Below the pieces are notes generated by a model that worked only from the letters and a program-made list of their open reading frames with translations, did not search any database and was not told where the DNA came from. A stretch of 56,728 bases of DNA, taken from a virus. Each line of letters begins with the position of its first letter. Position 1 is the stretch's first letter. Shown here piece by piece: positions 6,906-56,728 of this stretch. The stretch spans positions 1-56,728 of IMG/VR virus record IMGVR_UViG_3300008262_000238. One strand, given 5' to 3'. Position numbers and translations under genes: made by a program.

Positions 6906-6910
6906 TATGT

Positions 6911-7003
6911 TTGTAGATAAGAAAGGATTCGAACCCATAACGCCGTTTTTAACTCGGCATCTCCCCCAAATTGAGGATAGCGTCTACCAATTCCGCCACT
7001 CAC
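6911..7003 (-). tRNA. tRNA-Leu-like with extra hairpin before the anticodon arm
   Basis: Acceptor AGGTGAG/CTTATCT and a Leu-type D arm are present. The next hairpin (TCCTC-AATTTG-GGGGA) has a 6-nt loop. The following GCCG-AGTTAAAAA-CGGC could present UAA but has a 9-nt loop. The usual anticodon-then-variable-arm order seems disturbed. Confidence 0.5.
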
Positions 7004-7114
7004 CTATTTTTGTGATTTAGTAGTTAACACACACTCTCGTTTCACTATCTTATGTTAACAGGTTGATACACTTTACGAGTTTCCCGTTTCTTACAACCAC
7101 AATATTTTAAAAAT

Positions 7115-7251
7115 TTGAGATTTATATGTATCAGCATCATTACTCCATCGTTAAATGCTTTATGGCGGATTAGACCATACTAGTCGGAGCAAGCTAGTTC
7201 AATACATACTACCTAAAGTTTTCCCCCTCGTTTTAGTGTAATAAATCTCAA
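7115..7251 (-). ncRNA. structured ncRNA closed by an 11-bp stem
   Basis: TTGAGATTTAT at 7115-7125 pairs perfectly with ATAAATCTCAA at 7241-7251. The promoter at 7330-7337 lies upstream on the minus strand. Confidence 0.55.
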
Positions 7252-7329
7252 CAATTTCAAAGAACTTTCCCTTTTGACACGGGAGTAGGATCACCATCTC
7301 TAATCTTCCTACCCCCGTTGTTTGTCTTA

Positions 7330-7337
7330 CAAAGATA
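7330..7337 (-). promoter_or_regulatory. TAnnTTTG promoter for ncRNA/tRNAs
   Basis: TATCTTTG is just downstream of the 69-aa gene and upstream of the structured RNA at 7115-7251, with no gene between. Confidence 0.55.
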
Positions 7338-7361
7338 TGTAATGTTTTTTAATCTGCCAAA

Positions 7362-7571
7362 TTAATTGTGGATCATTTCTAAAATTTCTTCAACAGTTTC
7401 TGTTACTGAAAATCCCCCGTTGTTGTGAGTTGTAACACCAACACGAGTATGTTCTTTTTCAGTAACTCTTCCGTATTCCACTTTTTCATCAACAGGGTAA
7501 AAGTGTCCGATATGTTCAACATTCAAAACAATGATGTTCCCGTTTTTTGCTGTTAATTTGATAAATTTCAT
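7362..7571 (-). CDS. FlbD-like small protein (69 aa)
   Basis: It starts MKFIKLTAKNGNIIVLNVEH and ends in V-x-E-T-V-E-E-I-L-E-M-I. This is the pattern of FlbD-type proteins: a short beta-rich domain starting I-K-L-T-x-x-N-G with a late x-V-x-E-S-x-E-E-I helix. In phages the role is unknown. It sits between tRNA-Leu and a promoter. Confidence 0.7.
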   Translation of the reverse strand: MKFIKLTAKNGNIIVLNVEHIGHFYPVDEKVEYGRVTEKEHTRVGVTTHNNGGFSVTETVEEILEMIHN

Positions 7572-7594
7572 ATAATTTTATTTTTAATCGTTTG

Positions 7595-7678
7595 TACTCG
7601 GAGAGGGACTCGAACCCTCACTCCCGTCTGGGAACGGCAGCTTAAATGCAGCGTGTCTACCAATTCCACCATCCGAGC
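7595..7678 (-). tRNA. tRNA-Leu (UAA), second copy
   Basis: Anticodon loop TTTAAGC, variable arm CCC-AGAC-GGG and T arm GAGGG-TTCGAGT-CCCTC. The anticodon stem has one mismatch. Closely related to 2595-2678. Confidence 0.9.
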
Positions 7679-7720
7679 ATTTCACCAATATGTCAAAGAA
7701 CCTTTATCGTTTCTGCCTTA

Positions 7721-7728
7721 CAAATGTA
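7721..7728 (-). promoter_or_regulatory. TAnnTTTG promoter for tRNA-Leu
   Basis: TACATTTG lies 43 bp upstream of the tRNA-Leu 5' end. Confidence 0.5.
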
Positions 7729-7761
7729 AGTAATCTTTTTTAATTGCACAAGTCCTGAAAA

Positions 7762-7793
7762 CAAAAAACCCACCTCTTTTTGGAGATGGGTTT
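7762..7793 (-). terminator. terminator
   Basis: AACCCATCTC/GAGGTGGGTT with one mismatch, then TTTTTTG on the minus strand. Confidence 0.75.
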
Positions 7794-7815
7794 AAAATTT
7801 TTTATGTATATAATA

Positions 7816-7884
7816 TTACACCCTCTCCTTGAAAGTTGTCTCAGCTAAATCGCCCCCTATCAATGATATGTGTAAATTTTTCAT
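7816..7884 (-). CDS. 22-aa peptide (uncertain)
   Basis: The frame MKNLHISLIGGDLAETTF-KERV lies between a TATTTAT box at 7906-7912 and the terminator at 7762-7793, so it would be the only gene on that transcript. It may instead be a non-coding RNA. Confidence 0.4.
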   Translation of the reverse strand: MKNLHISLIGGDLAETTFKERV

Positions 7885-7943
7885 TTGCGTTTTTATTATT
7901 TTGTTATAAATATATAATACTTTTCAAAAGTGTCAAGTTTTTT

Positions 7944-8264
7944 TTAAAAATCTTCATCATAATCACCAAGAACCTCATAAAGGTAATCCTCATAATTCAA
8001 TGAAATATAGTCCGCTAATAACGTGAACAAGTCATCTTGAAAGTCACCCATAATATCTTTAGCCAAAGCCATGGCCTTTTTTCCCATAGTTGCATCATCA
8101 TAATCACCAAGATCGTAAAGAGATTCCCTAACCTCCTTAAACACATCATCCAATGTAATGGATATTCTCATACCTTCCATTTTATCTTCTTCGTTATCTT
8201 CTTTAATAACTCGTTTAACAATCCTTGTTAAATCCGATTCTGTTAATTTAGTTACTCTTTTCAT
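7944..8264 (-). CDS. class A tagged acidic protein (106 aa)
   Basis: The N-terminus KLTESDLTRIVKRVIKE is the class A tag, with L-T-E and I-K-E sites. The remaining 80 residues are strongly acidic (many Asp/Glu) without a known domain. A TATTTAT box lies 16 bp before the ATG. A paralogous tag opens the next gene upstream, but the bodies differ. Confidence 0.85.
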   Translation of the reverse strand: MKRVTKLTESDLTRIVKRVIKEDNEEDKMEGMRISITLDDVFKEVRESLYDLGDYDDATMGKKAMALAKDIMGDFQDDLFTLLADYISLNYEDYLYEVLGDYDEDF

Positions 8265-8318
8265 AATTTATATTTATTTTATAAATATTTTATGTTTTTT
8301 AAATGTGTCAAGTTTTTT

Positions 8319-8699
8319 TTAAAATTCTCCTTCACCCTCAATTTTACCCCAAACGTTTTTATATTCCGGGTTTTGTAAGAATAAATCGGCTTCAGTTGAT
8401 TCATTCTCCAAATCACTGATATAATCTTTTAACAAATCAATTACTTGTCTGATTCTTTCCTGTCTTTGTCTTGGACTAACTTTTCTTGATAGTTGGTGTT
8501 CTCTTGATAAATACCCGTATTCACCAGGATCACTAAAAACATTACCTTCATCTTTTCTAAAGAAGATGTCATTTAGTTTATCCCTTAAATTTAGATCTTT
8601 AGACTCTTTTTTATTGGATCTAAATCCCTCACCTTCTCTAATCACTTTTTTAACAATCCTTGTTAAATCCGATTCGGTTAATTTTATGACTTTTTTCAT
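8319..8699 (-). CDS. class A tagged protein (126 aa)
   Basis: The ATG at 8699 is chosen because it opens the class A tag (KLTESDLTRIVKKVIRE) and lies 4 bp after a TATTTAT box. A longer frame would run into the upstream tRNA. The body is charged and helical, with no known domain. L-T-E and I-R-E are candidate protease sites. Confidence 0.85.
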   Translation of the reverse strand: MKKVIKLTESDLTRIVKKVIREGEGFRSNKKESKDLNLRDKLNDIFFRKDEGNVFSDPGEYGYLSREHQLSRKVSPRQRQERIRQVIDLLKDYISDLENESTEADLFLQNPEYKNVWGKIEGEGEF

Positions 8700-8703
8700 A
8701 ATA

Positions 8704-8710
8704 ATAAATA
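8704..8710 (-). promoter_or_regulatory. TATTTAT box
   Basis: It lies 4 bp before the ATG at 8699. Confidence 0.5.
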
Positions 8711-8732
8711 TATCATTATTTGAAAATGTTTG

Positions 8733-8813
8733 TACCCCCGGAGAGATTCGAACTCTCACACCTCTCGGCATCAGATCCTAAATCTGACGTGTCTACCATT
8801 CCACCACGAGGGT
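8733..8813 (-). tRNA. tRNA-Leu (UAG)
   Basis: Anticodon arm TCAGA-TTTAGGA-TCTGA, long variable arm and T arm GAGAG-TTCGAAT-CTCTC. All stems pair. Confidence 0.93.
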
Positions 8814-8822
8814 ATTTTGTTG

Positions 8823-8894
8823 AGCTCAGGGTGGGATTTGAACCCACATACCAAGGTTTTGCAGACCTGGACTTTACCCATCAGACACCTGAGC
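8823..8894 (-). tRNA. tRNA-Cys (GCA)
   Basis: Acceptor GCTCAGG/CCTGAGC, loop CTGCAAA, T arm GTGGG-TTCAAAT-CCCAC and the Cys-typical U73. Confidence 0.92.
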
Positions 8895-8896
8895 AA

Positions 8897-9352
8897 TTAG
8901 CGGCAGTGGTGATCTGCCTCCCTTGTTGCGATTTGGTTGTTGGGCTTAATATTTGTTTTAAAACCTAACGAGTTTGCCCATCCGACCGTAGGTGAAACCA
9001 GTCGTGAACTGAAGTGTTTTTCTTCAGCATTGTAATCCAAATCAATCTCCACCTTTACATTAACTTTTTTTGTTAACCATTCCGCAACTTGTATTGAATA
9101 ATCAGCCTCATTCCATAATCTTGTCCATTTATCTTTGATCTTTTTTATCTTTTCCTTATGGTAGATGTAATGAACACCACGATTACCATATCTATAAGCA
9201 ATTGCCGTTACATATACGGTACTTCTTCTATGATTTTGAGAGTCAGTACCAATATGGATCTCAACGTATGGACATTCCCTTAATATTTCAAGCGTGTGAG
9301 ATACAACATCGGTAACCACCTCACCAGAAACCTTTCTAAATATTTTTTTCAT
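8897..9352 (-). CDS. RNase H-like DUF458 family protein (151 aa)
   Basis: The segment I-H-I-G-T-D-S-Q followed by V-Y-V-T-A-I-A-Y-R-Y-G matches the first strands of the DUF458/YkuK family, which has an RNase H-like fold with an early catalytic-type Asp. A conserved later D-L-D-Y is also present. A nucleic-acid nuclease or binding role is inferred. The gene lies between tRNA-Phe and tRNA-Cys on the same strand, with its stop 2 bp before the tRNA, so it is probably co-transcribed with both. Confidence 0.8.
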   Translation of the reverse strand: MKKIFRKVSGEVVTDVVSHTLEILRECPYVEIHIGTDSQNHRRSTVYVTAIAYRYGNRGVHYIYHKEKIKKIKDKWTRLWNEADYSIQVAEWLTKKVNVKVEIDLDYNAEEKHFSSRLVSPTVGWANSLGFKTNIKPNNQIATREADHHCR

Positions 9353-9366
9353 CTCACTACTTTTTG

Positions 9367-9442
9367 CGGAACCATAGGGAGTCGAACCCTAACTTTTGGA
9401 TTTTCAGTCCAACGTGACACACCATACTTACACCATAGTTCC
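9367..9442 (-). tRNA. tRNA-Phe (GAA)
   Basis: Anticodon arm TTGGA-CTGAAAA-TCCAA and T arm TAGGG-TTCGACT-CCCTA. The D loop is long and position 73 is G. Confidence 0.9.
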
Positions 9443-9444
9443 TT

Positions 9445-9942
9445 TTATTTAATTTCAAATGCACAACGCATTGGCCTTTTCAATTTTTGGGAATCCTCAA
9501 AGTTCCCAATAACAACACCGTCTTTGATCGTAAAGGCATGACATTTAACCAACACAATGAAAGTCCCCTTTGGATATTTCTTTACAAATGTACCAACGGT
9601 CATTTTTCTATTAACTATTTCATTTTTAACTTTAACAGGATAATCCAAAGAATTAATCATATAGTCATTTTTTCTTTCACCAACAGGATGAACTTTTTTA
9701 CCATTTACCCTAATTCCATTATCCGACATTTTAACAAGTTTCATTGGAGTACCAAATGTTCCCCTTCTTGGTTTTCTCCCAAATTCTTCGGCAACATACT
9801 TATGAGCATAATCATATGAAATTTCAAATGAAGATGCAAATGCTCTTACAACACAATCACTTGTTTCCCATTTAGCAATCTCAGAGTCATTATAACCTTT
9901 GATTGCAGTTCCTGTTGATTCGTACGGTAGTTTGTTTTTCAT
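9445..9942 (-). CDS. papain-like cysteine protease/transglutaminase-like candidate (165 aa)
   Basis: TSDCVVRAFA (Cys30), later K-C-H-A-F-T (His135) and G-N-F-E-D (Asn147/Asp150) give the Cys-His-Asn/Asp order of papain-like and transglutaminase-like enzymes. The DCVVRA motif is also common in small phage proteins. The substrate is unknown. The ATG at 9942 lies exactly 4 bp after TATCTTTG, so the mRNA is probably leaderless. A TTG 15 bp upstream would lie in the promoter. Confidence 0.75.
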   Translation of the reverse strand: MKNKLPYESTGTAIKGYNDSEIAKWETSDCVVRAFASSFEISYDYAHKYVAEEFGRKPRRGTFGTPMKLVKMSDNGIRVNGKKVHPVGERKNDYMINSLDYPVKVKNEIVNRKMTVGTFVKKYPKGTFIVLVKCHAFTIKDGVVIGNFEDSQKLKRPMRCAFEIK

Positions 9943-9946
9943 ATCA

Positions 9947-9954
9947 CAAAGATA
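9947..9954 (-). promoter_or_regulatory. TAnnTTTG promoter, 4 bp from ATG
   Basis: TATCTTTG-TGAT-ATG. Transcription would begin at or next to the start codon. Confidence 0.7.
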
Positions 9955-9989
9955 CAAAAACTTTTTTGATCGGCAAAATTAATTTTTAG

Positions 9990-10060
9990 CACGCGCCGTT
10001 AGAATCGAACTAACCCACCGAGGTTTTGGAGACCTGGCCGACACCTTGTCTGTGACGCGC
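9990..10060 (-). tRNA. tRNA-Trp (CCA)
   Basis: Anticodon loop CTCCAAA, T arm GTTAG-TTCGATT-CTAAC, acceptor GCGCGTC/GGCGCGT and G73. The D arm is short. Confidence 0.88.
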
Positions 10061-10071
10061 TTATATTATTG

Positions 10072-10144
10072 TACCCCCACAGAGATTCAAACTCCGATCC
10101 CACCCTTAGAAGGGGTGTGTCCTATTCAGTTGGACGATGGGGGC
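10072..10144 (-). tRNA. tRNA-Arg (UCU)
   Basis: Anticodon arm CACCC-CTTCTAA-GGGTG. T loop TTTGAAT. Acceptor pairs fully. Confidence 0.92.
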
Positions 10145-10149
10145 AATTG

Positions 10150-10222
10150 TACCCTCAAAGAGATTCAAACTCCTATCTCTGGATCCGTAGTCCAGGGTTT
10201 TATTCAGTTAAACTATGTGGGC
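10150..10222 (-). tRNA. tRNA-Arg (ACG)
   Basis: Anticodon arm CTGGA-CTACGGA-TCCAG. T loop TTTGAAT. One acceptor mismatch. A34 would need TadA-type deamination in the host. Confidence 0.9.
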
Positions 10223-10315
10223 AATTAAAGAATTTTGGTCAACCACTCGCATCCCACCAATCTCTTGTATCAAACTTTTTGTAGTCCAAACGATTCCTTT
10301 ATTGAACTTAATCAT
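10208..10315 (-). CDS. 35-aa frame overlapping tRNA-Arg (uncertain)
   Basis: The frame starts MIKFNKGIVWTTKSLIQEIG and its stop lies inside the tRNA-Arg 5' end. Proteins overlapping a tRNA are unusual, so this may be chance. Confidence 0.25.
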   Translation of the reverse strand: MIKFNKGIVWTTKSLIQEIGGMRVVDQNSLIAHIV

Positions 10316-10340
10316 TTTGGTAATATCTCCTACGACTCAT

Positions 10341-10415
10341 TCTCAACTCACTTGCCTAAGCCTTGTAACCAGGATATGAGCCCGGCTCGGACACCTGTCC
10401 TATCGGTATGTTGAG
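10341..10415 (-). tRNA. tRNA-Met-like (CAU) without normal T arm
   Basis: Anticodon arm CCGGG-CTCATAT-CCTGG, D-type stem GGAC-AGGT-GTCC and terminal CTCAAC/GTTGAG define a tRNA-length unit. The T-arm region does not fold. Its 5' end touches the tRNA-Ser 3' end. Confidence 0.5.
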
Positions 10416-10502
10416 GAAAGCAGTGGTAACGATCCACAATCGGTTTCTCACCGATCACATTGTTTAGCAAACAAGTCCCGTCGCCTTCAGGGATTACTTT
10501 CC
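10414..10502 (-). tRNA. tRNA-Ser (GCU)
   Basis: Class II: D stem TCCC/GGGA, anticodon loop TTGCTAA, variable arm ATCGGT-GAGAA-ACCGAT, T arm GTGG-ATCGTTA-CCAC. The T loop is ATCG-type rather than TTCR. Confidence 0.85.
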
Positions 10503-10507
10503 ATTTG

Positions 10508-10580
10508 TGCTCATCACCGGTTACGATCCGATTCTCTCCACGATATCAGCGTGGTGCTTTCCCGATTAAGCTAGATGAGC
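10508..10580 (-). tRNA. tRNA-Ile (GAU)
   Basis: Acceptor GCTCATC/GATGAGC, anticodon arm CCACG-CTGATAT-CGTGG, T arm ATCGG-ATCGTAA-CCGGT. Confidence 0.9.
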
Positions 10581-10583
10581 CTG

Positions 10584-11117
10584 TTATAATAGTTTTTCGT
10601 GTATCTCAGCATGACAATTTGAGCACACTAATAAACATTTATCCACTTCTTCTTTTAATCTGTCAAATGACAAACTCTTTCCTGAAATTGTGAAGTCTTT
10701 TTCATTTGGATTTTTATGGTGGAATTGTAGTGCGGTCAGACATTTATTATAACCACATATTTCACACTTCCCTCCCTTGTATTCAATCAATTTCTTTTTA
10801 GTTCTCTTTCTCCATGATATAACAGATTGAGACCCACTAATCTTTTTAACCCTAACAACACTTTTAACGTGTTTTTTAACAGTTTCAAAAGACCTACCCG
10901 TAATCCTTACAACTTTTTTTAAGGAACCCACTTCATCGTATAATTTTTGAAGTTGTTCTTTTTCTTCTTCTGTTACTTTTTGATTGTTGTTGCCTAATTT
11001 ATGTATCTGACAATGATACGACACTGTTGACATTGCGCAACCTAAAATTTTTGTAATTTCTTTGTAGGTTTTTCCTTCTTTCCTCAAAGATATAATTTTT
11101 TCCGAATACCTTTCCAT
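10584..11117 (-). CDS. HNH homing-type endonuclease (177 aa)
   Basis: Helix-turn-helix segments at residues about 10-45 (GKTYKEITKILGCAMS) and 60-85 precede a C-terminal HNH domain: C118-E-I-C121, F-H133-H134-K-N136, and C165-S-N-C168-H169...H173. This is the layout of free-standing phage HNH endonucleases, in which the DNA-binding part gives target preference. It sits between tRNA-Ile and tRNA-Asn. A relative with the same HNH core lies at 12740-13261 on the other strand. A TATTTAT box lies 20 bp upstream. Confidence 0.92.
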   Translation of the reverse strand: MERYSEKIISLRKEGKTYKEITKILGCAMSTVSYHCQIHKLGNNNQKVTEEEKEQLQKLYDEVGSLKKVVRITGRSFETVKKHVKSVVRVKKISGSQSVISWRKRTKKKLIEYKGGKCEICGYNKCLTALQFHHKNPNEKDFTISGKSLSFDRLKEEVDKCLLVCSNCHAEIHEKLL

Positions 11118-11167
11118 AACATTAACATTTTATATTAATAAATATCTGATAGTTCGGAAAAAATAAG

Positions 11168-11255
11168 CTGATGGGGTGGGATTCGAACCCACGGTGGAGA
11201 AAATTCTCGTCGGATTAACAGTCCGATGCGTTCGGCCAACTACGCGAACCCATCA
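11168..11255 (-). tRNA. tRNA-Asn (GUU) with long variable arm
   Basis: Anticodon arm TCGGA-CTGTTAA-TCCGA, T arm GTGGG-TTCGAAT-CCCAC, G73. Instead of the usual 5-nt variable loop there is a 17-nt arm with GAGAA/TTCTC. Confidence 0.9.
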
Positions 11256-11264
11256 ATTTTTTTG

Positions 11265-11347
11265 TGGGAGAGGAGGGACTTGAACCCCCACGTCCTCACG
11301 GAAACGGTTTTACAGACCGCCGAGCCAACCAATTGCTCAACACTCCC
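11265..11347 (-). tRNA. tRNA-Tyr (GUA)
   Basis: Class II with variable arm TCC-GTGA-GGA, anticodon loop CTGTAAA and T loop TTCAAGT. Confidence 0.92.
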
Positions 11348-11408
11348 AAATTTAGGAAATCAGAAGATGGTTGCGTGGACATCTGATTTTACGATTGGCG
11401 TTACTTTG

Positions 11409-11468
11409 GTGTATATCTCCCAACTCCGATGATACTGACCGATATACACTCTCGTGTCATTAGTATCA
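11409..11468. ncRNA. candidate H-type pseudoknot
   Basis: GTGTATATC (11409-11417) pairs with GATATACAC (11441-11449). TGATACT (11430-11436), inside that loop, pairs with AGTATCA (11462-11468), outside it. A separate hairpin AAATCAGA/TCTGATTT lies at 11357-11389. No gene is present here. Confidence 0.45.
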
Positions 11469-11490
11469 CCCTTCCCCAATCAACCTATAG

Positions 11491-11561
11491 TACCCCAAGA
11501 TGGATTTGAACCACCACCGATAGTATGTAACACTATCACGCTCCCATTACGCCATTGAGGT
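11491..11561 (-). tRNA. tRNA-Val (UAC)
   Basis: Anticodon arm ATAGT-GTTACAT-ACTAT, acceptor ACCTCAA/TTGGGGT, T loop TTCAAAT. Confidence 0.9.
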
Positions 11562-11578
11562 GTTTTAGTTTTTCAGAA

Positions 11579-11586
11579 CAAAAGTA
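11579..11586 (-). promoter_or_regulatory. TAnnTTTG promoter for tRNA-Val
   Basis: TACTTTTG ends 17 bp upstream of the tRNA-Val 5' end. Confidence 0.5.
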
Positions 11587-11630
11587 ACCATTTTTTGGTA
11601 ACTATCACCCCTTTTTACTAAATTTTTTTG

Positions 11631-11705
11631 TGACCCCGGTGAGACTTGAACTCACGACCCCTCCGTTAAAAGCGGAGTGCTCTAAACCAACTGAGCTACG
11701 AGATC
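11631..11705 (-). tRNA. tRNA-Lys (UUU)
   Basis: Anticodon arm CTCCG-CTTTTAA-CGGAG, T arm GTGAG-TTCAAGT-CTCAC. Confidence 0.93.
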
Positions 11706-11723
11706 TTCTGTTTGTCATACTTG

Positions 11724-11912
11724 TCACTTTCCATAAGACATTAGTTTTTGATTGTTTATTTTTATTTCTGTTTCTACCCTTTTTAGTTCTTCACTTAAAT
11801 CCCCACGGTAGGATGGGTCTTTACTAATTTTGGATAAACTTAAGTAATAATTGTTTAAACCCTCAAGTCTTCCTTTAATTGCAATTTTTTCACATTCTTC
11901 GTTTGTTACCAT
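11724..11912 (-). CDS. 62-aa charged helical protein
   Basis: It starts MVTNEECEKIAIKGRLEGLN and continues as a likely coiled coil. It sits between tRNA-Pro and tRNA-Lys. The start at 11912 is used because the longer frame runs into the tRNA-Pro gene. Confidence 0.65.
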   Translation of the reverse strand: MVTNEECEKIAIKGRLEGLNNYYLSLSKISKDPSYRGDLSEELKRVETEIKINNQKLMSYGK

Positions 11913-11927
11913 TTTTTTAAATTTTAG

Positions 11928-12000
11928 TAGGGTAGACAGGGGTCGAACCTGCATCGTCCACGTCCCAAACGTGGTGACTTACCAATTAGTCAACTACCCT
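11928..12000 (-). tRNA. tRNA-Pro (UGG)
   Basis: Anticodon arm CCACG-TTTGGGA-CGTGG, acceptor AGGGTAG/CTACCCT. Confidence 0.92.
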
Positions 12001-12006
12001 ATGTTG

Positions 12007-12090
12007 AGGAAGCCTGAGGTGTCGATCCCCATACCTTTCAGTACCGCCCGTTTTCAAGACGGGGTTGCAAGCCGTTGCAATTAGACTTCC
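12007..12090 (-). tRNA. tRNA-Ser (UGA)
   Basis: Anticodon arm CCCGT-CTTGAAA-ACGGG, long variable arm, T arm TGGGG-ATCGACA-CCTCA. It ends T-CA instead of the G73 usual in Ser tRNAs. Confidence 0.88.
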
Positions 12091-12099
12091 TTTTTGTTG

Positions 12100-12171
12100 A
12101 TCTCCCCCGAGGGTTCGAACCTCAATTCCATGGACCAAAACCATGTGTCCTGCCAGTTAGACGAGGGGAGA
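12100..12171 (-). tRNA. tRNA-Gln (UUG)
   Basis: Anticodon arm CATGG-TTTTGGT-CCATG, acceptor TCTCCCC/GGGGAGA, end T-CA. Confidence 0.9.
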
Positions 12172-12209
12172 ATTTAAGGCCAATATGTCAAAGAACATTT
12201 TCTTTTTTT

Positions 12210-12282
12210 GAGGTCTCTGTCGGAACTGACCCGACAACTCAACTTTACAAGAGTCGTATTTTTCCTGTTAAACTAAGAGACC
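12210..12282 (-). tRNA. tRNA-Thr (UGU)
   Basis: Anticodon arm CGACT-CTTGTAA-AGTTG, acceptor GGTCTCT/AGAGACC. The T arm GTCGG-GTCAGTT-CCGAC has a non-standard loop. The end is T-CA. Confidence 0.85.
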
Positions 12283-12292
12283 AATGTAAAAC

Positions 12293-12320
12293 AAAAAACC
12301 CGAGATTTTGTGTCTCGGGT
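12293..12320 (-). terminator. terminator
   Basis: CCCGAGA/TCTCGGG with a 7-nt loop, then TTTTTTG on the minus strand. Confidence 0.85.
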
Positions 12321-12351
12321 CTTTCATTTTTATTTTATATTTGATGATACG

Positions 12352-12462
12352 TTATACCATACTATTAAATGAAAGACACCGAAGACGCTGAAGCGTAATA
12401 TACGACTTGACCCAATTCTGACACGGGTTACTAAAGTTCATATGTTTCATTGTTGTTTTCAT
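12352..12462 (-). CDS. 36-aa peptide with own promoter and terminator
   Basis: It starts MKTTMKHMNFSNPCQNWVKS. A TATTTAT box at 12470-12476 and the terminator at 12293-12320 frame it as a one-gene transcript. Part of its DNA weakly resembles the repeated element at 1583/2545, so an RNA function is an alternative. Confidence 0.45.
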   Translation of the reverse strand: MKTTMKHMNFSNPCQNWVKSYITLQRLRCLSFNSMV

Positions 12463-12544
12463 CTTGGTTATAAATATATGTATTTTACAAAAAGTTTTAA
12501 ATTCTTTTACAAATTTAGTAATATTTTTTTATTTGACAAGCATT

Positions 12545-12658
12545 TTATTGATTTTTTTCATAAAATTCTTCTTGATCCTCTTTTAATTTATGTAAATAAA
12601 CATAAAATTCTTCAGAGTTTATAAATTCATTATGAATTATTTCTAAAATTTCGTCCAT
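12545..12658 (-). CDS. 37-aa acidic peptide, leaderless
   Basis: It starts MDEILEIIHNEFINSEEFYV: a small acidic helical protein. The ATG lies exactly 4 bp after TAACTTTG, one of four genes with this identical spacing, which supports it as real. Confidence 0.7.
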   Translation of the reverse strand: MDEILEIIHNEFINSEEFYVYLHKLKEDQEEFYEKNQ

Positions 12659-12662
12659 GTAA

Positions 12663-12670
12663 CAAAGTTA
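12663..12670 (-). promoter_or_regulatory. TAnnTTTG promoter, 4 bp from ATG
   Basis: TAACTTTG-TTAC-ATG. Confidence 0.65.
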
Positions 12671-12739
12671 AATATTTTTTTAATAAAAGACAACTTTTGT
12701 AGTTTAATTGGATATTTATATAATATAATCCATTAGACT

Positions 12740-13261
12740 ATGAAAAAAGAAGAATTAGAAAACTTGATAAATGATGGTAAGTCATTGAACCAAATTAGTA
12801 AGGAAATAGGTAAGTCTTTAACATCTGTTAGGTATTGGGCAAAAAAACACAAAATACCTTTTGAAACTAAAAATTTCTCAAATCAAGGGATAAAGGATTA
12901 TGGGGAATCAAGATTATGCCCAAGATGTAAAAAATCATGTTCTATTGATCAATTTTATGATAGGAGAGGTAAAAAAAATAGTTCAGTATATTGTAAAAAA
13001 TGTACCACTGAACAGGTTGTGGAACGAACTCAGAAATTGAAACAAGAAATGGTAAACTATAAAGGGGGTTGTTGTGAATTATGTGGGTATGACAAATATA
13101 TAGGTGCGTTAGATTTTCATCATATAAACCCAAATGAAAAAGATTTTACAATTGCAAAAGTTAGACAATATAAATTTGATGAAGTAATAAAGGAAGAATT
13201 GGATAAATGTATGTTAGTATGTTCTAATTGTCACCGTGAGATACACGGTGGATTAAAGTAG
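12740..13261 (+). CDS. HNH homing-type endonuclease with zinc ribbon (173 aa)
   Basis: An N-terminal HTH (residues 5-45, GKSLNQISKEIGKS) is followed by a zinc ribbon (C60-x-x-C63 ... C85-x-x-C88) and an HNH core: C112-x-x-C115, F-H127-H128-I-N130, C161-S-N-C164-H165...H169. The core is close to that of 10584-11117 (CGYxK, PNEKDFTI), so the two are probably recent relatives. It is the only gene on the plus strand between 0.8 and 19 kb and is inserted next to tRNA-Arg, which fits a mobile gene. A TATTTAT box lies at 12713-12719. Confidence 0.93.
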   Translation: MKKEELENLINDGKSLNQISKEIGKSLTSVRYWAKKHKIPFETKNFSNQGIKDYGESRLCPRCKKSCSIDQFYDRRGKKNSSVYCKKCTTEQVVERTQKLKQEMVNYKGGCCELCGYDKYIGALDFHHINPNEKDFTIAKVRQYKFDEVIKEELDKCMLVCSNCHREIHGGLK

Positions 13262-13335
13262 TACACCCGCCAGGATTCAAACCTGGAATCTACTCATTAG
13301 AAGTGAGTTGCATTGTTCAATTATGCTACGGGTGC
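13262..13335 (-). tRNA. tRNA-Arg (UCU), second copy
   Basis: Anticodon arm ACTCA-CTTCTAA-TGAGT, T arm CCAGG-TTTGAAT-CCTGG, acceptor GCACCCG/CGGGTGT. Its 3' end abuts the stop codon of the convergent HNH gene. Confidence 0.92.
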
Positions 13336-40122: not shown

Positions 40123-40476
40123 TTATTTCAATGACCCCCAAAGATCCCCAATAGTTGGCTCCCAATCATCACCGTCATTATCGTCAAATTCAGAATTGCC
40201 CAATAAATCCTGACAAAAAGATATTATTGATCTCAAATAGTTTTTTCTTTCATCATCAGACATTCCCATTAAATCATATTCAATATCATCAAATATTCCG
40301 TGTGTATCCAAAGGAGAATTATCATCCTCATATTGTTCAACCAGTGGGTTAACATTACCAAGTTTATTCTCAACCAACCCTTTAAAGTTTTTGATATCCA
40401 AGTTCATACCCCCGGTATGTTGTTCTCTTATTGAGTTTTTTTCCTCTTCGGATAAATTATTTAATAAATTTTTCAT
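40123..40476 (-). CDS. 117-aa protein with LSEEEKNSIREQH N-terminus
   Basis: The N-terminus LLNNLSEEEKNSIREQHTGG contains I-R-E and resembles the 229-aa protein at 20149. The middle is acidic, with DERKNYLRSIISFCQDLLGN. A disrupted second copy lies directly upstream (40521-40684 and 41163-41279). Confidence 0.82.
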   Translation of the reverse strand: MKNLLNNLSEEEKNSIREQHTGGMNLDIKNFKGLVENKLGNVNPLVEQYEDDNSPLDTHGIFDDIEYDLMGMSDDERKNYLRSIISFCQDLLGNSEFDDNDGDDWEPTIGDLWGSLK

Positions 40477-40520
40477 AATTATAATTATTTAGTTATAAAT
40501 ATCTCAATTTTTAATAATTA

Positions 40521-40684
40521 TCAATTTAAATATTCTTCTTCGTATTCACTACAATCTGCATTATCATAATAATCCTCAATTTCCCCACCAAATAATTCCT
40601 CCAAATTATCGTCAAATTCAGAATTGCCCAATAAATCCTGACAAAAAGATATTATTGATCTCAAATAGTTTTTTCTTTCATCAT
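40521..40684 (-). pseudogene. 3' fragment of a duplicate of the 117-aa gene
   Basis: It matches 40187-40259 almost base for base (DERKNYLRSIISFCQDLLGN) but has no in-frame start and ends with a different acidic C-terminus. The 5' part is at 41163-41279. Confidence 0.7.
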
Positions 40685-41098
40685 TTAATTACATCTATAC
40701 TTGTGACATTCAACTAGTTAAAAACCGATATCCTCCAACCTATTTTTGATTGCTTTTAGAACTTTACCTCTCATTTTATTTGACTTGTTCATATTACTCC
40801 AATTACTTTGCATCTTTACAAGTTTTTTCATTCCCTCTTCTCCACTACATTTATTTATATCAAATAAAATTTCATCAAGGTTTTTTCCCTCAAAAGTTGA
40901 TATTTTTGATTCACTAAAAATAACATCAGACGTATTCAATTTTTTATTTGAATTTTCTATTAGGAAGTTCCTAAAATTGTCTATGTGTTGTCTCATTTCT
41001 TTACTCATAATTTTCTTTTATATATGTTTATTTAATTCTTTCATTACTCGCGAAAATTTATTATAACCCAGATTTGCTCAAAAGAATTCTGTAATTCC
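40685..41098 (-). mobile_element. insertion splitting the duplicate gene
   Basis: This 414-bp segment lies between the two pieces of the pseudogene and is flanked by direct repeats TCATCAT (40678-40684 and 41099-41105), like a target-site duplication. It carries one ORF and no transposase. Confidence 0.4.
40718..41008 (-). CDS. 96-aa helical protein in the insertion
   Basis: It starts MSKEMRQHIDNFRNFLIENS and is basic and helical. It has no tag and no known motif. It is the only gene in the inserted segment. Confidence 0.75.
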   Translation of the reverse strand: MSKEMRQHIDNFRNFLIENSNKKLNTSDVIFSESKISTFEGKNLDEILFDINKCSGEEGMKKLVKMQSNWSNMNKSNKMRGKVLKAIKNRLEDIGF

Positions 41099-41162
41099 TC
41101 ATCATCCATTTCTTCCCAATATCTTCAAATATTCCGTGTGTATCCAAAGGAGAATTATCATC

Positions 41163-41279
41163 CTAAGATTGTTCAACCAACCCTTTAAAGTTTTTGATAT
41201 TTAAGTTCATACCCCCGGTATGTTGTTCTCTTATTGAGTTTTTTTCCTCTTCGGATAAATTATTTAATAAATTTTTCAT
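41163..41279 (-). pseudogene. 5' fragment of a duplicate of the 117-aa gene (38 codons)
   Basis: The first 32 codons match the intact gene. Then a deletion of about 36 bp and a TAG stop interrupt it. The remaining similarity continues past the stop to about 41127. Confidence 0.75.
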
Positions 41280-41322
41280 AATATAATTATTTAGTTATAA
41301 ATATCTCAATTTTTCATAAATA

Positions 41323-41706
41323 TCAAATATCAAGAAATGGAATATCCAATGTCTTAACCTTATATACGGCAGCATATTCTTCATCATATTTAACAACGGA
41401 TTGGACAAGCACATCAATAATCCTATTTACCTCTCCCCCATATTCAGATACGTCATTACCTCCGGCTGCTTCATTAAATACAAACATTGGATTCATTAAC
41501 ATCCCTCGCTTAATAAAATCAAAATCAATTGTATATTTGGGAAACATATCACGAAGAAGTTCAAGATCAATAATAAAGAAAAAATTATGTTTTCTTTCAT
41601 ACGACCATCTTGCAATTGCGATATCTTTTTTATATTCCAAGTCAATAATGAAAGGGTACTTCAAATGTACAACTCTAAGTATGTTCTTTAATAATTTTTC
41701 GTTCAT
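41323..41706 (-). CDS. KYPFI family protein 3 (127 aa)
   Basis: NEKLLKNILRVVHLKYPFII, F-F-F-I-I-D-L-E-L-L-R-D-M-F-P, then Y-G-G-E-V-N-R-I-I-D-V-L-V-Q-S-V-V-K-Y-D. First of three consecutive paralogues; 1 bp from the next. Confidence 0.83.
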   Translation of the reverse strand: MNEKLLKNILRVVHLKYPFIIDLEYKKDIAIARWSYERKHNFFFIIDLELLRDMFPKYTIDFDFIKRGMLMNPMFVFNEAAGGNDVSEYGGEVNRIIDVLVQSVVKYDEEYAAVYKVKTLDIPFLDI

Positions 41707-49229: not shown

Positions 49230-49682
49230 TTAATCCGCATATATTATATCCCCGCTTGGTAAAAAATAGAGTGCCCTTCGGATATCCCCTTTAATGTTAT
49301 ATTCATTTTTGAACCATAGCTTTATTGTTGATGATCTATCTGATTCGTTTCTATAAAAATGACTAACCCCCTCAAGTATTCTACTACCCACATATAATTT
49401 TATATACCCATAATCTTCTTCATTAAGAACAAATTGAATGACTCCTTCATCTGTTTTATAAAATATATCATTACCATCAATTTCAATATTTAATCCTTTG
49501 AATATTTTCAAGAATTGTATTGGATTATGTATATCTAAAAACCTGAACAGATTATCCATACCTCCCACCAAATTCGCCGCAAATTTTGTCCCCTCATTTT
49601 TTATCATTGATAATAACTTCTCTTTGAAAACTTCCTTTCTTTCTTCCCTTAATATTCTTCTTATGGATTCTTGTAGGTTCAT
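49230..49682 (-). CDS. class C tagged protein with GG module (150 aa)
   Basis: MNLQESIRRILREERKEVFK (L-Q-E, L-R-E), then AANLVGGMDNLFRFLDI. The late I-K-L-W-F-K-N-E-Y-N-I-K segment matches the relatives. Confidence 0.83.
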   Translation of the reverse strand: MNLQESIRRILREERKEVFKEKLLSMIKNEGTKFAANLVGGMDNLFRFLDIHNPIQFLKIFKGLNIEIDGNDIFYKTDEGVIQFVLNEEDYGYIKLYVGSRILEGVSHFYRNESDRSSTIKLWFKNEYNIKGDIRRALYFLPSGDIIYAD

Positions 49683-49687: not shown

Positions 49688-50002
49688 TTAATGATATAAT
49701 TTATATAATTGTTTAATTTTACCCTCAAGTACGTTGGAAACTTTTTTTACAAATTCTATCTCTTCTTGTTCTGGTAAATCTTCCCATCCCAATTCATATT
49801 CATTCCACATAATTGCCTCCACGGCTCTTAAAGTTAATTCATATTTAAATTGTTCATAACTTTCTGTTTCACCATATACTTGTTCGGCGTTTACTGGAAG
49901 TAACCTACTAACCTGATCAATATCAATTCTTCTACGAAAGAATTTTGATTCATTCAATAGTTCTTCTTTTAATATTCTTCTTATGTTCTCTTGTAGGTTC
50001 AT
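49688..50002 (-). CDS. class C tagged protein (104 aa)
   Basis: MNLQENIRRILKEELLNESK, with L-Q-E and L-K-E. No GG module; the body is unrelated to the neighbours. Confidence 0.82.
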   Translation of the reverse strand: MNLQENIRRILKEELLNESKFFRRRIDIDQVSRLLPVNAEQVYGETESYEQFKYELTLRAVEAIMWNEYELGWEDLPEQEEIEFVKKVSNVLEGKIKQLYKLYH

Positions 50003-50003: not shown

Positions 50004-50420
50004 TTAACACCATACTGATGATACTTTTATGTCGTTTCCTCTAACTATTCCTTTTCCTAATTCATAAACCATATCTCTAATTTTTTCTTCTAAATCAATT
50101 TCTATACTTCTGTTGATCCACGCATCTAAATTGTTTGGGTCACGTAATGGAATATTAACAAGAGTTCTAATTGAATGAAACCATTTTGACACTACAAAGT
50201 TACATATTGGTTCATTTAAATCGTGTTTTAATATTGTATTAACAATAAACATCATATCTTCCTGTGTTCCTTTTAATTCAAGTATTTTATGAACTTTTTC
50301 TAACGAACCTATTACATTTGATGCCCTTAAAAACCCATTGTTTTTTACCAAATCTCTAACAACACTTTTAAGGGATCTTTCTTCCCTTAATACTCTTCTT
50401 ATGGATTCTTGTAGGTTCAT
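50004..50420 (-). CDS. class C tagged protein with GG-like module (138 aa)
   Basis: MNLQESIRRVLREERSLKSV, then FLRASNVIGSLEKVHKILEL (module with I-G-S instead of V-G-G). Confidence 0.82.
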   Translation of the reverse strand: MNLQESIRRVLREERSLKSVVRDLVKNNGFLRASNVIGSLEKVHKILELKGTQEDMMFIVNTILKHDLNEPICNFVVSKWFHSIRTLVNIPLRDPNNLDAWINRSIEIDLEEKIRDMVYELGKGIVRGNDIKVSSVWC

Positions 50421-50891
50421 TTAAAATTTTTTTATTTTAGAGAGTACGTTAATGATATTATCTAATTCTGATATAGATAGGTTTTTTAATTTTTCGGCTC
50501 CATCATAATAATTTTCCCAATCATACTCCCCCATGTCTTCATCATAACCATATTGTTTGTATGTGTAAAATCCGGCAACATAAATATCAATTACTTCCGT
50601 AATATATTTAGAATAATCTGTGTTATTATGTCTTGTATTAACAAAAATATCGTGGTCTCTAACATCAATATAATCCCCATTTTCTTCACCATATCTTTTC
50701 ACAATCTCACTTATCAATTCTATCATTTCACTTTTAGTTATATTATCTCCATATAGTTTTTTAAACTTACTATAATTCCCTACCGCTCTGATCGTATTTA
50801 ATACCCCAAACTTATCAATCATGGTCTTTAATTTATCTGTGATTGATGACTCTTCCTTTAATATTCTTCTTATGGATTCTTGTAGGTTCAT
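50421..50891 (-). CDS. class C tagged protein with GG-like module (156 aa)
   Basis: MNLQESIRRILKEESSITDK, then LNTIRAVGNYSKFKKLYGD (V-G-N variant). The C-terminal half is Tyr/Asp-rich. Confidence 0.82.
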   Translation of the reverse strand: MNLQESIRRILKEESSITDKLKTMIDKFGVLNTIRAVGNYSKFKKLYGDNITKSEMIELISEIVKRYGEENGDYIDVRDHDIFVNTRHNNTDYSKYITEVIDIYVAGFYTYKQYGYDEDMGEYDWENYYDGAEKLKNLSISELDNIINVLSKIKKF

Positions 50892-50892: not shown

Positions 50893-51291
50893 TTATTGTT
50901 TCGGTATCATTTTTAAATATGGTAGGGGTTTATTCATCATATAATATGCTAACGCTCTGTGGTTTCCTTCATTTCCTACCGCTGGATAATCAAGTCCCCT
51001 TTTTTTAATGTCTCTAACAAGTTTTCTAATATAGGGGTCTTCCTTTGCGTTCTCAATATCCCACTCACCAAAAACAGAAAATAAATACTCCTCGTTTTCT
51101 TCAGGACTAATTAAAACATATTCATATAAATAATCTTCAGGACCCTCATCGTAATTATCTTCAAACATAACTTCTATATCTTGTTTTGTTTGTTCAGGTA
51201 ATTCGTTAAATTCATATGATTCACCAACAACCCCTTTGAACTTATTGGTTTCCTCCCTTAATATTCTTCTTATGTTTTCTTGTAGGTTCAT
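50893..51291 (-). CDS. class C tagged ParB-like protein (132 aa)
   Basis: MNLQENIRRILREETNKFKG precedes an acidic region and LDYPAVGNEGNHRALAYYMM. G-N-H-R-A-L-A is the core of ParB/sulfiredoxin-fold domains, where it binds nucleotide. Role unknown; possibly a DNA- or NTP-binding effector. Confidence 0.82.
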   Translation of the reverse strand: MNLQENIRRILREETNKFKGVVGESYEFNELPEQTKQDIEVMFEDNYDEGPEDYLYEYVLISPEENEEYLFSVFGEWDIENAKEDPYIRKLVRDIKKRGLDYPAVGNEGNHRALAYYMMNKPLPYLKMIPKQ

Positions 51292-51893
51292 TTTGTATAA
51301 TAAGTAATTATATTAATTGCATGTTTAACAACCATGCTACCCGCAAGGTTCCACATTTCATCCAGAATTGTGTCGTCACCTTTTATTACCTTTTGAAGTA
51401 TTTTCTTGTTTAATCTAACAATGTTTTCTTCATTATGTTCTAAACCATTTTCTTTTATGATTCTGTGAGATATTATGGGAATCATACTTCTTACATCTTG
51501 GATTGCCTGTTTAAACTCACTTTCGGAAGGTTTATTCAATTCTTCCCTTAATATTCTTCTTATGTTCTCTTGTAGGTTCTCAACTAATCTGTAACTAAAT
51601 CTTGGTTTTTTTAATATTTTAGCAGCAATTAACCTATGGTAACCATCTTCTAAACCTTTTTCATCATAAACCAAATCAGTTATCTTATCGGGGTTATTAA
51701 TAAAGTGTTTTATTGTCTTTATGTTTTCATTCTTGTGGTCAGATAGTGAATCCCAATTATCAACAATATCTTGTAAAGTATAATCTTTTAAAGTATTAAA
51801 CTTTGAATTTTTGTACTTACTAAATTCTTTATTAGTTGATTTAGTTTTTTTATCTTCCCTTAATATTCTTTTTATGTTCTCTTGTAGGTTCAT
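51288..51893 (-). CDS. two-tag fusion protein with ParB-like first half (201 aa)
   Basis: The first tag MNLQENIKRILREDKK is followed by a ParB-like segment (GLEDGYHRLIAAKILKKPRF) and then, in frame and without a Met, by a second tag NLQENIRRILREELNKPSE. The second half is helical (VRSMIPIISHRIIKENGLEH). The internal tag DNA matches gene starts elsewhere in the operon, with GAG in place of ATG, so two genes appear to have fused. The start at 51893 follows a TATTTAT box by 4 bp. Confidence 0.85.
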   Translation of the reverse strand: MNLQENIKRILREDKKTKSTNKEFSKYKNSKFNTLKDYTLQDIVDNWDSLSDHKNENIKTIKHFINNPDKITDLVYDEKGLEDGYHRLIAAKILKKPRFSYRLVENLQENIRRILREELNKPSESEFKQAIQDVRSMIPIISHRIIKENGLEHNEENIVRLNKKILQKVIKGDDTILDEMWNLAGSMVVKHAINIITYYTK

Positions 51894-51897
51894 AATT

Positions 51898-51904
51898 ATA
51901 AATA
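51898..51904 (-). promoter_or_regulatory. TATTTAT box (minus)
   Basis: It lies 4 bp before the ATG at 51893, back to back with the plus-strand box. Confidence 0.6.
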
Positions 51905-51909
51905 TCATA

Positions 51910-51922: not shown

Positions 51923-52357
51923 ATGAAAGTTATTATAAACGAAAATAGAATGAAGCCAATTCTACGTAAACTTCTTAATATGGTATACGAAGGGTTTGAT
52001 GATATTTACTATGATTGGGCTGATTATAATTGCGGAATGGGAGTATGTTGTGATCCATATGCCGTTGGATTTACTCTACCTAAAAGTCATCATGATGACT
52101 ATCTATTTAAGTTGGTTGATGGTGAAAAATATGATGATGATGGGGATTATCCTGAAGAACTTAAAGGTGATTTACCTGAACCTTGTTATGAACGTCCAGA
52201 TCTAAAAAATCCTTACTTTGATACCATAATATTTTATGATGATTATGCCGAACGAATTAAGAATGTTTTGGGTAATGAAAAAAATTGGGAATTTGTTTTA
52301 TTGGATGTAATAAATGAAATGTTTGGGTGTGACGCAATTAGAATTATTTTTAGATAA
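51923..52357 (+). CDS. class B tagged protein (144 aa), the only plus-strand gene in the operon
   Basis: MKVIINENRMKPILRKLLNM is a class B tag with I-N-E. The body is acidic and Tyr-rich with a Cys pair (CGMGVCCD). It appears to be inserted in the class C operon: the tag remnant at 52370-52449 lies directly after it and reads the other way. Confidence 0.82.
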   Translation: MKVIINENRMKPILRKLLNMVYEGFDDIYYDWADYNCGMGVCCDPYAVGFTLPKSHHDDYLFKLVDGEKYDDDGDYPEELKGDLPEPCYERPDLKNPYFDTIIFYDDYAERIKNVLGNEKNWEFVLLDVINEMFGCDAIRIIFR

Positions 52358-52369
52358 ATTAATCCCCAC

Positions 52370-52449
52370 AATTTGACACTACTTTTGAAATAAATAGGTA
52401 ATTCAGTTTCTTCCCTTAATATTCTTCTTATGGATTCTTGTAGGTTCAT
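52370..52449 (-). pseudogene. truncated class C tag, partial gene duplication
   Basis: Bases 52382-52449 repeat 52711-52778 (tag plus ETELPIYFK). After that the frame runs into the antisense of the plus-strand gene and gives a meaningless sequence. It looks like the leftover 5' end of a duplicated gene after an insertion. Confidence 0.75.
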
Positions 52450-52778
52450 CTAATTTCGTAGAAGTGTTTTAGGTTTTGTTTTGAATAATATTTACTTAAA
52501 AAATCCCATAGTTGATTAAATCTGTTGTCACCATCACTGAGTTCTAATTCAAAGTTTTCAATTACCTCTTCTATTAAATTTGATGTGACAAGCACATTAA
52601 ATTTATATGGTGTCATCGCAAATAACTTTTTTTTATTGTCAGTGTATCTTTTTGACACCACCTTTAAAACAAATTGATATATTTGTTCAATAGTTTTCAT
52701 ATCTAACCTTCTTTTGAAATAAATAGGTAATTCAGTTTCTTCCCTTAATATTCTTCTTATGGATTCTTGTAGGTTCAT
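52446..52778 (-). CDS. class C tagged protein (110 aa)
   Basis: MNLQESIRRILREETELPIY with L-Q-E and L-R-E. A helical C-terminus follows. It overlaps the remnant start by 4 bp. Confidence 0.82.
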   Translation of the reverse strand: MNLQESIRRILREETELPIYFKRRLDMKTIEQIYQFVLKVVSKRYTDNKKKLFAMTPYKFNVLVTSNLIEEVIENFELELSDGDNRFNQLWDFLSKYYSKQNLKHFYEIR

Positions 52779-55588: not shown

Positions 55589-55915
55589 TTATTTTTGTTT
55601 ATTATACCAATTAATGAATTTCACAACACCATCAAAAGCGATATTTATTTCACAAGAAAAAACAGTTTCTTCAAGATCCCTAAGTATGTAAATATCATTT
55701 GCGTCTTTTGGATTACTCAATAGGTTCTTACACGTTTTAACTACTGGCATCAACCATTCCCAAGACTTATTATATTTCATTTCATTAGGCTCTAAGAAAG
55801 GAAAATCCAAATCATAAAAATAGTATCTATCATCATTTATACCTTCGTGATATCTAAGTGTTTTAATACCCATAAAGTCCGCGATCATTACATTCTTTTC
55901 TTCAATTGTTACCAT
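55589..55915 (-). CDS. 108-aa protein of unknown function
   Basis: It has the segment MVTIEEKNVMIADFMGIKTL, then W-E-W-L-M-P-V-V and a C-terminal VKFINWYNKQ. This is a conserved style of small proteins (I-A-x-F-M-G ... W-x-x-L-M-P-V-V ... W-Y-N) that I recall from Bacteroidetes phages and mobile elements. Function unknown. Confidence 0.78.
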   Translation of the reverse strand: MVTIEEKNVMIADFMGIKTLRYHEGINDDRYYFYDLDFPFLEPNEMKYNKSWEWLMPVVKTCKNLLSNPKDANDIYILRDLEETVFSCEINIAFDGVVKFINWYNKQK

Positions 55916-55920
55916 ATCTT

Positions 55921-56283
55921 TTATTTTTCTCGTTCAATAAATTCAATTAACTTTTCAAGACAAGCAATCTCTGCAAGTTCAAATGTCTCATATAAGTCAC
56001 CGTAGTATATCCTGTCCTTTTGAAAGTTATCAAGTGTATAACTCCAATTATTTTTTGTCACTTGGTTTATTTTGATTGTCCACAGGTAGTTTTCTCTAAA
56101 CCACCTAAATGCTTGTGAGAATGTTGGGGCTAAAACATTTGTTTCTGCCACATTGTTTGGATTTACATATTTAATTTTACCTAATTCCTTAAATCCGCCC
56201 ATATAAAAACTAAAACAAGGTTCATCAAAACCCAATTGTTTCAATTTTAAAGCGTGGTCATAAGGTACAAATTCTTTTTCCAT
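55921..56283 (-). CDS. FVPY family protein (120 aa)
   Basis: MEKEFVPYDHALKLKQLGFD then EPCFSFYMGG, and later PTFSQAFRWFRENYLWTIKI. The family (F-V-P-Y ... L-x-x-L-G-F-x-E-P-C ... Q-A-F-R-W-F-R) is common in Bacteroidetes phages and mobile elements, but its function is not known to me. A truncated relative is at 54703-54874. Confidence 0.82.
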   Translation of the reverse strand: MEKEFVPYDHALKLKQLGFDEPCFSFYMGGFKELGKIKYVNPNNVAETNVLAPTFSQAFRWFRENYLWTIKINQVTKNNWSYTLDNFQKDRIYYGDLYETFELAEIACLEKLIEFIEREK

Positions 56284-56288
56284 ATCTC

Positions 56289-56369
56289 TTAGTCTTTTCT
56301 ATTTATATTAATACCTATGATAATTCCCGTGATTATCCCAATCGCTAACATTAATGTTTCTATATTCAT
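56289..56369 (-). CDS. 26-aa single-span membrane peptide
   Basis: MNIETLMLAIGIITGIII then GININRKD. It is preceded by the conserved AACAATAAGAGAT leader, and its stop TAA is part of the TAAGAGAT sequence before the next start, which suggests coupling. Confidence 0.7.
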   Translation of the reverse strand: MNIETLMLAIGIITGIIIGININRKD

Positions 56370-56384
56370 ATCTCTTATTGTTTA

Positions 56385-56657
56385 TTACTCATTAATAACT
56401 TCTTTAGCCAGTCTTAAAATACAATCTTTGTATGACTCTGTTTCAACTGAACCGTAGGTTTTACCCCAAAGACCAGTAACGATTACTTGTGTCTCTTTAA
56501 ACGGTAATGGTTCATTAATTTTGGTTTTACCTAACACCAATAACATACCTTCAATCGCACCCAATCGTCTTAGAATATCTTTACTATTGTGTTTTTGATC
56601 GTGCATGTTAATAATGATAATTGAAATGTCTTTTTTGATTTCTTCTCTGGTCTTCAT
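56385..56657 (-). CDS. 90-aa protein of unknown function
   Basis: MKTREEIKKDISIIIINMHD, then LRRLGAIEGMLLVLGK, and a C-terminal part with CILRLAKEVINE. The start at 56657 follows the leader TAGAAACAATAAGAGAT and TATCTTTG; a longer frame would translate the leader. Confidence 0.78.
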   Translation of the reverse strand: MKTREEIKKDISIIIINMHDQKHNSKDILRRLGAIEGMLLVLGKTKINEPLPFKETQVIVTGLWGKTYGSVETESYKDCILRLAKEVINE

Positions 56658-56674
56658 ATCTCTTATTGTTTCTA

Positions 56675-56682
56675 CAAAGATA
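56675..56682 (-). promoter_or_regulatory. TAnnTTTG promoter with conserved leader
   Basis: TATCTTTG followed by the 17-nt leader also found before the gene at 4220. Confidence 0.65.
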
Positions 56683-56692
56683 CAACGCAAAT

Positions 56693-56724
56693 AAAAAACC
56701 CACAACCTGTTAAAGTGTGGGTTT
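56693..56724 (-). terminator. terminator of a gene outside the window
   Basis: AACCCACA/TGTGGGTT followed by TTTTTT on the minus strand. Confidence 0.8.
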
Positions 56725-56728
56725 TGAT

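Follow-up and report, generated by a model that had tools for sequence, protein, structure and literature searches.

Why should the opening of a gene be found twice in identical form, once heading an intact gene and once heading no body at all? The question is raised by a 68-bp direct repeat in a 56.7-kb fragment of an uncultured virus from IMG/VR (the window, by which the whole of the DNA analysed is meant). Between about 47.9 and 54.6 kb nearly all genes of the window lie on the minus strand, are 100-200 codons long and possess a similar short start ending in glutamate, forming an array of small head-to-tail genes with a common 14-codon start, here called the tag. Four tag types can be distinguished, type 1 (MNLQESIRRILREE) and type 2 (MKERIRHILREE) in the array, and type 3 (...LTESDLTRIVRRVINE) and type 4 (MKYIITES) elsewhere in the window, with a total of 28 tagged ORFs in 57 kb. 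The type 1 tag occurs at 10 places in the window and at 168 in 50 contig segments, ahead of bodies belonging to many families, and codon 13 is Glu in all 168. All four types end in [IL]xE, a motif that was partly built into the search pattern. An initial Met is lacking in 28 of the 168 type 1 tags, most of which lie within longer ORFs; fusion is common. Comparison of the array region with the DNA of named phages returned no match, nor did comparison of a tagged protein, the plus-strand gene described below or the type 3 tag with named phages. The tag pattern was not found in bacterial and archaeal genomes, ten tagged proteins searched against Pfam and PHROGs gave marginal matches and no confident family, and the tag DNA had no match in Rfam.

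The two copies of the repeat (copies 1 and 2 of Table 1), when aligned as the first-pass annotation had suggested, are identical at 68 of 68 bp and have the same orientation, in agreement with its description of a near-exact direct repeat. With a three-base extension (52379-52449 against 52708-52778) they match at 70 of 71 positions, the sole mismatch being at 52381/52710, and the flanks differ. On the minus strand, both copies read MNLQESIRRILREE-TELPIYFK, and their spacing of 329 bp, from start to start, is the length of gene A, the intact gene that begins with copy 2. The exact run of 68 bp is the longest among 384 same-contig pairs of type 1 tags (the next being 54 bp and the median 9 bp), and its length is far beyond chance. 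The repeat continues for nine codons (ETELPIYFK) past the tag core, and because these codons are specific to gene A, what was copied is the 5' end of that gene and not the tag alone. Relatives of gene A vary in this extension, with ETELPIFIRRR and ETELPSYIRRR in contig 3300031758_006414 (hereafter L009), and GTELPYYIRRR and EKELPIYFKRR in L005; given such variation, the perfect identity seen here suggests that the 5' end of gene A itself was copied recently. Taken alone, the repeat is no demonstration of tag movement. The earlier suggestion that tag DNA duplicates or moves as a unit is therefore not supported by the present repeat, which extends nine codons past the tag, but it does hold among relatives, where the tag is exchangeable as judged by module exchange, interchangeable tag types and synonymous-site conservation.

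Copy 1 opens at the stop codon of gene A, with an ATGA overlap that is a usual gene spacing in the array, and after 23 codons it runs antisense to the plus-strand gene, as the first-pass annotation had recognized; the last 115 bp of the orphan ORF are antisense to the 3' end of that gene. The same annotation's term for this structure, a decapitated gene start, was right as to a truncated gene start and inverted in its wording, since the head is present and the body missing. The orphan ORF is a gene head without a body, or stub. The plus-strand gene it runs into is genuine, because homologues with 56-64% amino-acid identity are present in 13 other viral loci. Stubs are rare, as only 2 of the 168 type 1 tags in the 50 contig segments head an ORF of fewer than 75 codons, namely the stub itself and a tag in 3300020578_000020 whose body is interrupted by an in-frame stop at codon 56. 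By itself, the stub is a modest, rare leftover.

Table 1. Positions of the repeat, the stub and neighbouring tagged genes in the window.
Feature	Position	Strand	Remarks
Type 1 tag, gene start	49641..49682	-	
Type 1 tag, gene start	49961..50002	-	
Type 1 tag, gene start	50379..50420	-	
Type 1 tag, gene start	50850..50891	-	
Type 1 tag, gene start	51250..51291	-	
Double-tag gene: tag, module DKKTKST..., internal tag ENLQENIRRILREE, second module	51288..51908	-	
Internal tag without start codon, in frame within double-tag gene	51538..51582	-	
Module matching L009 at 97.6% DNA identity	51540..51876	-	Both ends in tags, flanks unrelated
Type 1 tag, gene start, divergent from plus-strand gene	51852..51893	-	Layout same in L009
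Plus-strand gene, MKVIINENR- type tag	51923..52357	+	Body has other tag types in relatives
Orphan ORF (stub), 68 aa: tag and nine gene A codons, then codons without relatives	52243..52449	-	Antisense to plus-strand gene
Junction, 24 bp between plus-strand gene stop and repeat	52358..52381	.	From sequence
Copy 1: orphan tag MNLQESIRRILREE and ETELPIYFK codons	52382..52449	-	Starts at gene A stop (ATGA overlap)
Gene A, 110 aa, intact, tagged	52446..52778	-	ORF; relative in L005 77% over residues 10-110
Copy 2: start of intact gene A	52711..52778	-	From alignment

Neither junction sequence had a match when searched in other viral contigs, a set from which near-identical records may have been withheld. 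The 24 bp beyond the stop of the plus-strand gene have no counterpart in the 13 homologues, and on the far side of the plus-strand gene nothing was found that could be the rest of a second gene A. There is no identifiable homology at the junction of stub and plus-strand gene, and that end was thus not made by tag pairing. The idea that the 24-bp spacer (CCCCACAATTTG) represents half a terminator was dropped, since it is not above chance in the window.

Across relatives, tag DNA acts as an exchangeable unit, and one such exchange lies next door to the stub, in the module that the window has in common with L009. In the first tag of this module the 5' part differs between window and L009 at many positions and the 3' half is identical; at the other end, identity reaches only a little beyond the second tag, an internal one that lacks a start codon in both the window virus and L009, and the protein sequence thereafter is unrelated. 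The adjoining module of L009 is, tag to tag, 94.8% identical to 3300033076_001145 instead. Because modules of L009 match different contigs tag to tag, L009 is a mosaic with its seams in tags. Among stretches of at least 90% identity between contigs, 50 of 136 ends fall in tags, as against 7.4 expected and a maximum of 19 in 2000 local shifts, an excess that is partly built in, given that the tag by itself suffices to align one tagged gene with another. The seams inside the first tag and at the internal tag are free of this objection.

Bodies, too, are found behind different tags. In the window, the body of the plus-strand gene follows MKVIINENR; in other viruses it is preceded by MKYIITENQ or MKYIIGEDR or, as in L093, L095 and L096, by the type 1 tag. 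Besides this gene, eight body clusters possess two or more tag types. A second case of a copied gene start is provided by a relative, 3300042455_001086, in which two genes begin with a common tag and LESK (54 bp exact) and continue into unrelated bodies. The two tags lie at 5808 and 4236 (numbering of the merged segment 80136-98712), and the genes represent a productive counterpart of the stub. A separate match lies at the end of the window, where 55589-56728 is 97-100% identical in pieces to 3300008117_000011 (L015) and the adjoining tag array is strongly different, a pattern attributable either to recent exchange or to a shared flank.

With moderate confidence, we regard the stub as a dead end of recombination events for which shared tag DNA provides the anchor, and the tag as a capsid-targeting leader. 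Recombination between near-identical tags, within and between phages, would exchange or duplicate what lies behind them, and since every gene start offers 42 bp that are nearly identical, tags should pair easily. At this locus, the tag of gene A would have paired with the tag of the next gene, placing the gene A start at the next start position, the site of copy 1. The first 23 codons of gene A would have been copied recently, overlapping the gene A stop as ATGA, and the join would have met the far side of the opposite-strand gene rather than a usable body, leaving a stub whose body was lost or replaced at the junction. We infer both this order of events and homologous recombination as the agent, which is favoured in that tags are the shared stretch and bodies change place. 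Matches resembling RecA/UvsX are present in 6 of 11 relatives, all of them weak and below the curated cut-off. Phage T4 amplifies segments in tandem at microhomologies of 6-10 bp (PMC9391042); at the present locus, one junction lies at a tag, and the plus-strand junction is without recognizable homology. A more tentative extension is that the tag may be of double use, as a protein address to the head and as a DNA handle, kept nearly identical, for trading cargo bodies among genes and among phages, whereby the stub would be a failed trade.

A simpler route to the same product, in which the tags have no special part, would be that gene A was duplicated in tandem and that insertion of the plus-strand gene then replaced most of the second copy. 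Such a duplication would account for the spacing of the copies, which is that of one gene A length, and for the position of copy 1 exactly at the gene A end. The window also possesses another duplicated gene in which an unrelated ORF interrupts the second copy (40605-41326). There, 40123-40476 (minus strand) recurs in two parts, 40605-40684 (80/80) and 41117-41326, with ORF 40718-41008 between them; since this tag is absent from the interrupted duplication at 40123-41326, local duplication needs no tags. However, a second gene A body has left no remainder beyond the plus-strand gene, and the tag-bounded module exchange next door argues for involvement of the tags, so that simple duplication is possible and somewhat improbable.

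Distinctly less probable is an artefact of metagenome assembly, in which two viral variants would have been merged across the 68-bp identity. The window is an uncultured fragment, near-identical tag arrays are hard to assemble, and neither junction recurs in another viral contig, but the copies are distinguished by the mismatch next to the repeat and by their flanks, the ATGA overlap of copy 1 is a usual spacing in the array, and the search for the junctions may have lacked near-identical records.

The conservation of the tag as DNA bears on a further reading, namely that it is a dedicated nucleic-acid element, either a recombination site or a translational control in mRNA, of which the repeat is a further copy. 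Codon use was compared between 104 de-duplicated gene-start type 1 tags and bodies, with 19 internal tags in addition; the loci were found by degenerate patterns, and codon choice was therefore not selected by the search. Serine is encoded by TCC in 84% of cases in gene-start tags, 6% in bodies and 8% at the 5' ends of untagged ORFs, and arginine by AGG in 89%, 16% and 16%, respectively. For leucine, CTA accounts for 74% in gene-start tags against 9% in bodies, and for asparagine AAC accounts for 81% against 23%, with weak effects at untagged ORF 5' ends (19% and 44%). These codons are retained in the internal tags (TCC 75%, AGG 62%, AAC 80%, CTA 53%), and start-of-gene effects are thus not the explanation. 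At identical residues in homologous pairs (bodies 35-80% identical), the same codon is used in 83-87% of cases in tags versus 57-71% in bodies, and codon constancy in the tag does not depend on how far the bodies have diverged. Type 1 DNA has either been spread by frequent copying or been subject to selection at the nucleotide level. Gene conversion within genomes was rejected as the main homogenizer of tags, the difference in similarity between tags of the same contig (0.835) and of different contigs (0.815) being too small.

A nucleic-acid element would account for rare codons fixed at synonymous sites of type 1 tags across contigs, internal tags included, and for their restriction to this type, as types 2, 3 and 4 are without strong rare-codon fixation and follow ordinary body usage at nearly all positions. 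The conserved block, however, spans ATG to codon 14, as would a coding unit, Rfam contains no match, the repeat is without a terminator-like hairpin, and the pattern could equally result if tag DNA were often exchanged, all of which makes such an element very unlikely. An autonomous mobile element, whether a transposon, a shufflon or another site-specific system, was rejected for want of terminal inverted repeats and inverted tag copies, with no inverted pairs involving the tag.

Recombination anchored in the tag, the preferred reading, assigns the tag a role as a leader, and what that leader might do is indicated by the relatives of the window virus. Their records include Peptidase_S77 (the T4 gp21 family) in 9 of 12 cases and Gp23 in 8 of 12, identifying them as T4-superfamily phages; these data come from relatives, the window being a fragment with no recognized head genes. 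The head protein of the relatives is similar to that of Microcystis phage Mel-JY01 and to that of Flavobacterium phage immuto, and a [HF]LINE-[AS] site is conserved in 8 of 8 head proteins of the lineage, at the position where T4 gp23 is cut. Together with the S77 protease of the relatives and the INE site in their gp23, which it matches, the [IL]xE end of the tag suggests that the tag is probably a T4-type capsid-targeting leader. The phage prohead protease would remove it after [IL]xE, and each body would be cargo packed into the head. As far as sequence can tell, packaged cargo is the most likely role of the tagged proteins. Proteins with two tags, seen in the double-tag gene of the window and in relatives, where about 27 tags lie inside longer ORFs, would be small polyproteins if the tag is cut.

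The internal proteins of T4 are few, and are injected anti-restriction factors with a leader alone in common. The T-even internal proteins IPI, IPII and IPIII with their CTS resemble the tagged proteins in being diverse and small with only a short N-terminal leader in common, and in belonging to phages of the T4 superfamily that encode gp23 and an S77 prohead protease, the leader ending in Glu with a hydrophobic P3. In contrast, the set described here, of which packaging and cleavage are putative, is far larger (28 ORFs and four tag types), has tags inside ORFs as well, and includes one tag type conserved as DNA. The surroundings of the stub, a large array in which leader-tagged genes recombine, take the theme of the T-even internal proteins further.

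Among elements that shuffle genes, PeSLs, reportedly described by Arbiol in 2010, are said to be mobile regulatory cassettes of T4-type phages whose short repeats foster gene shuffling. The tag is likewise a short repeated element that fosters gene shuffling, but a PeSL consists of an intergenic promoter and stem-loop, whereas the tag is coding and starts at ATG. Identity with a PeSL cassette was rejected, as the element is coding from its ATG and the repeat has no terminator-like hairpin. The segmental amplification of T4 (tifA, Hp17) is, as may be the case here, a tandem partial duplication at short repeats (PMC9391042), yet here the repeated stretch is a conserved coding leader present at many genes, which can anchor repeated exchange. 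Tail-fibre adhesins of T-even phages undergo modular exchange at conserved motifs, as reported by Tetart 1998, cited in PMC3012670; there, conserved short motifs allow variable protein segments to swap, as in the array, but the genes and the position of the motif are different, whole bodies behind an N-terminal leader being swapped here.

Two further observations concern the window and its relatives. Positions 1633-13335 of the window are densely occupied by predicted tRNA genes, 24 in number, for two of which the anticodon is unassigned. Within ORFs of relatives there are CRISPR-like arrays (L005 2622-4260, L009 8590-8955, L032, L066, L037 and L111-L122), in which repeats of about 36 bp (GTGGAAGAGGTCTTAAATCATAAGGTATCTACAAC) recur with a constant 66-bp period (178 spacings) and enclose inserts that are each unique. 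The distinct inserts, 77 in all, have without exception a length of 30 bp, a final G and a reading frame free of stops, and stops occur in the other two forward frames in 21 and 46 of them. Two related contigs have trailing inserts in common, in the same order, and differ at the leading end. This translated and hypervariable array is present in more than ten viral contigs.

If the double use of the tag is true, T4-like jumbo phages would possess a system for shuffling their payload that is open-ended. Dozens of leaders exchanged as DNA would constitute a rich source of injected counter-defence proteins that could be listed by their leader alone, and the reshuffling of injected cargo by phage would become a testable proposition.
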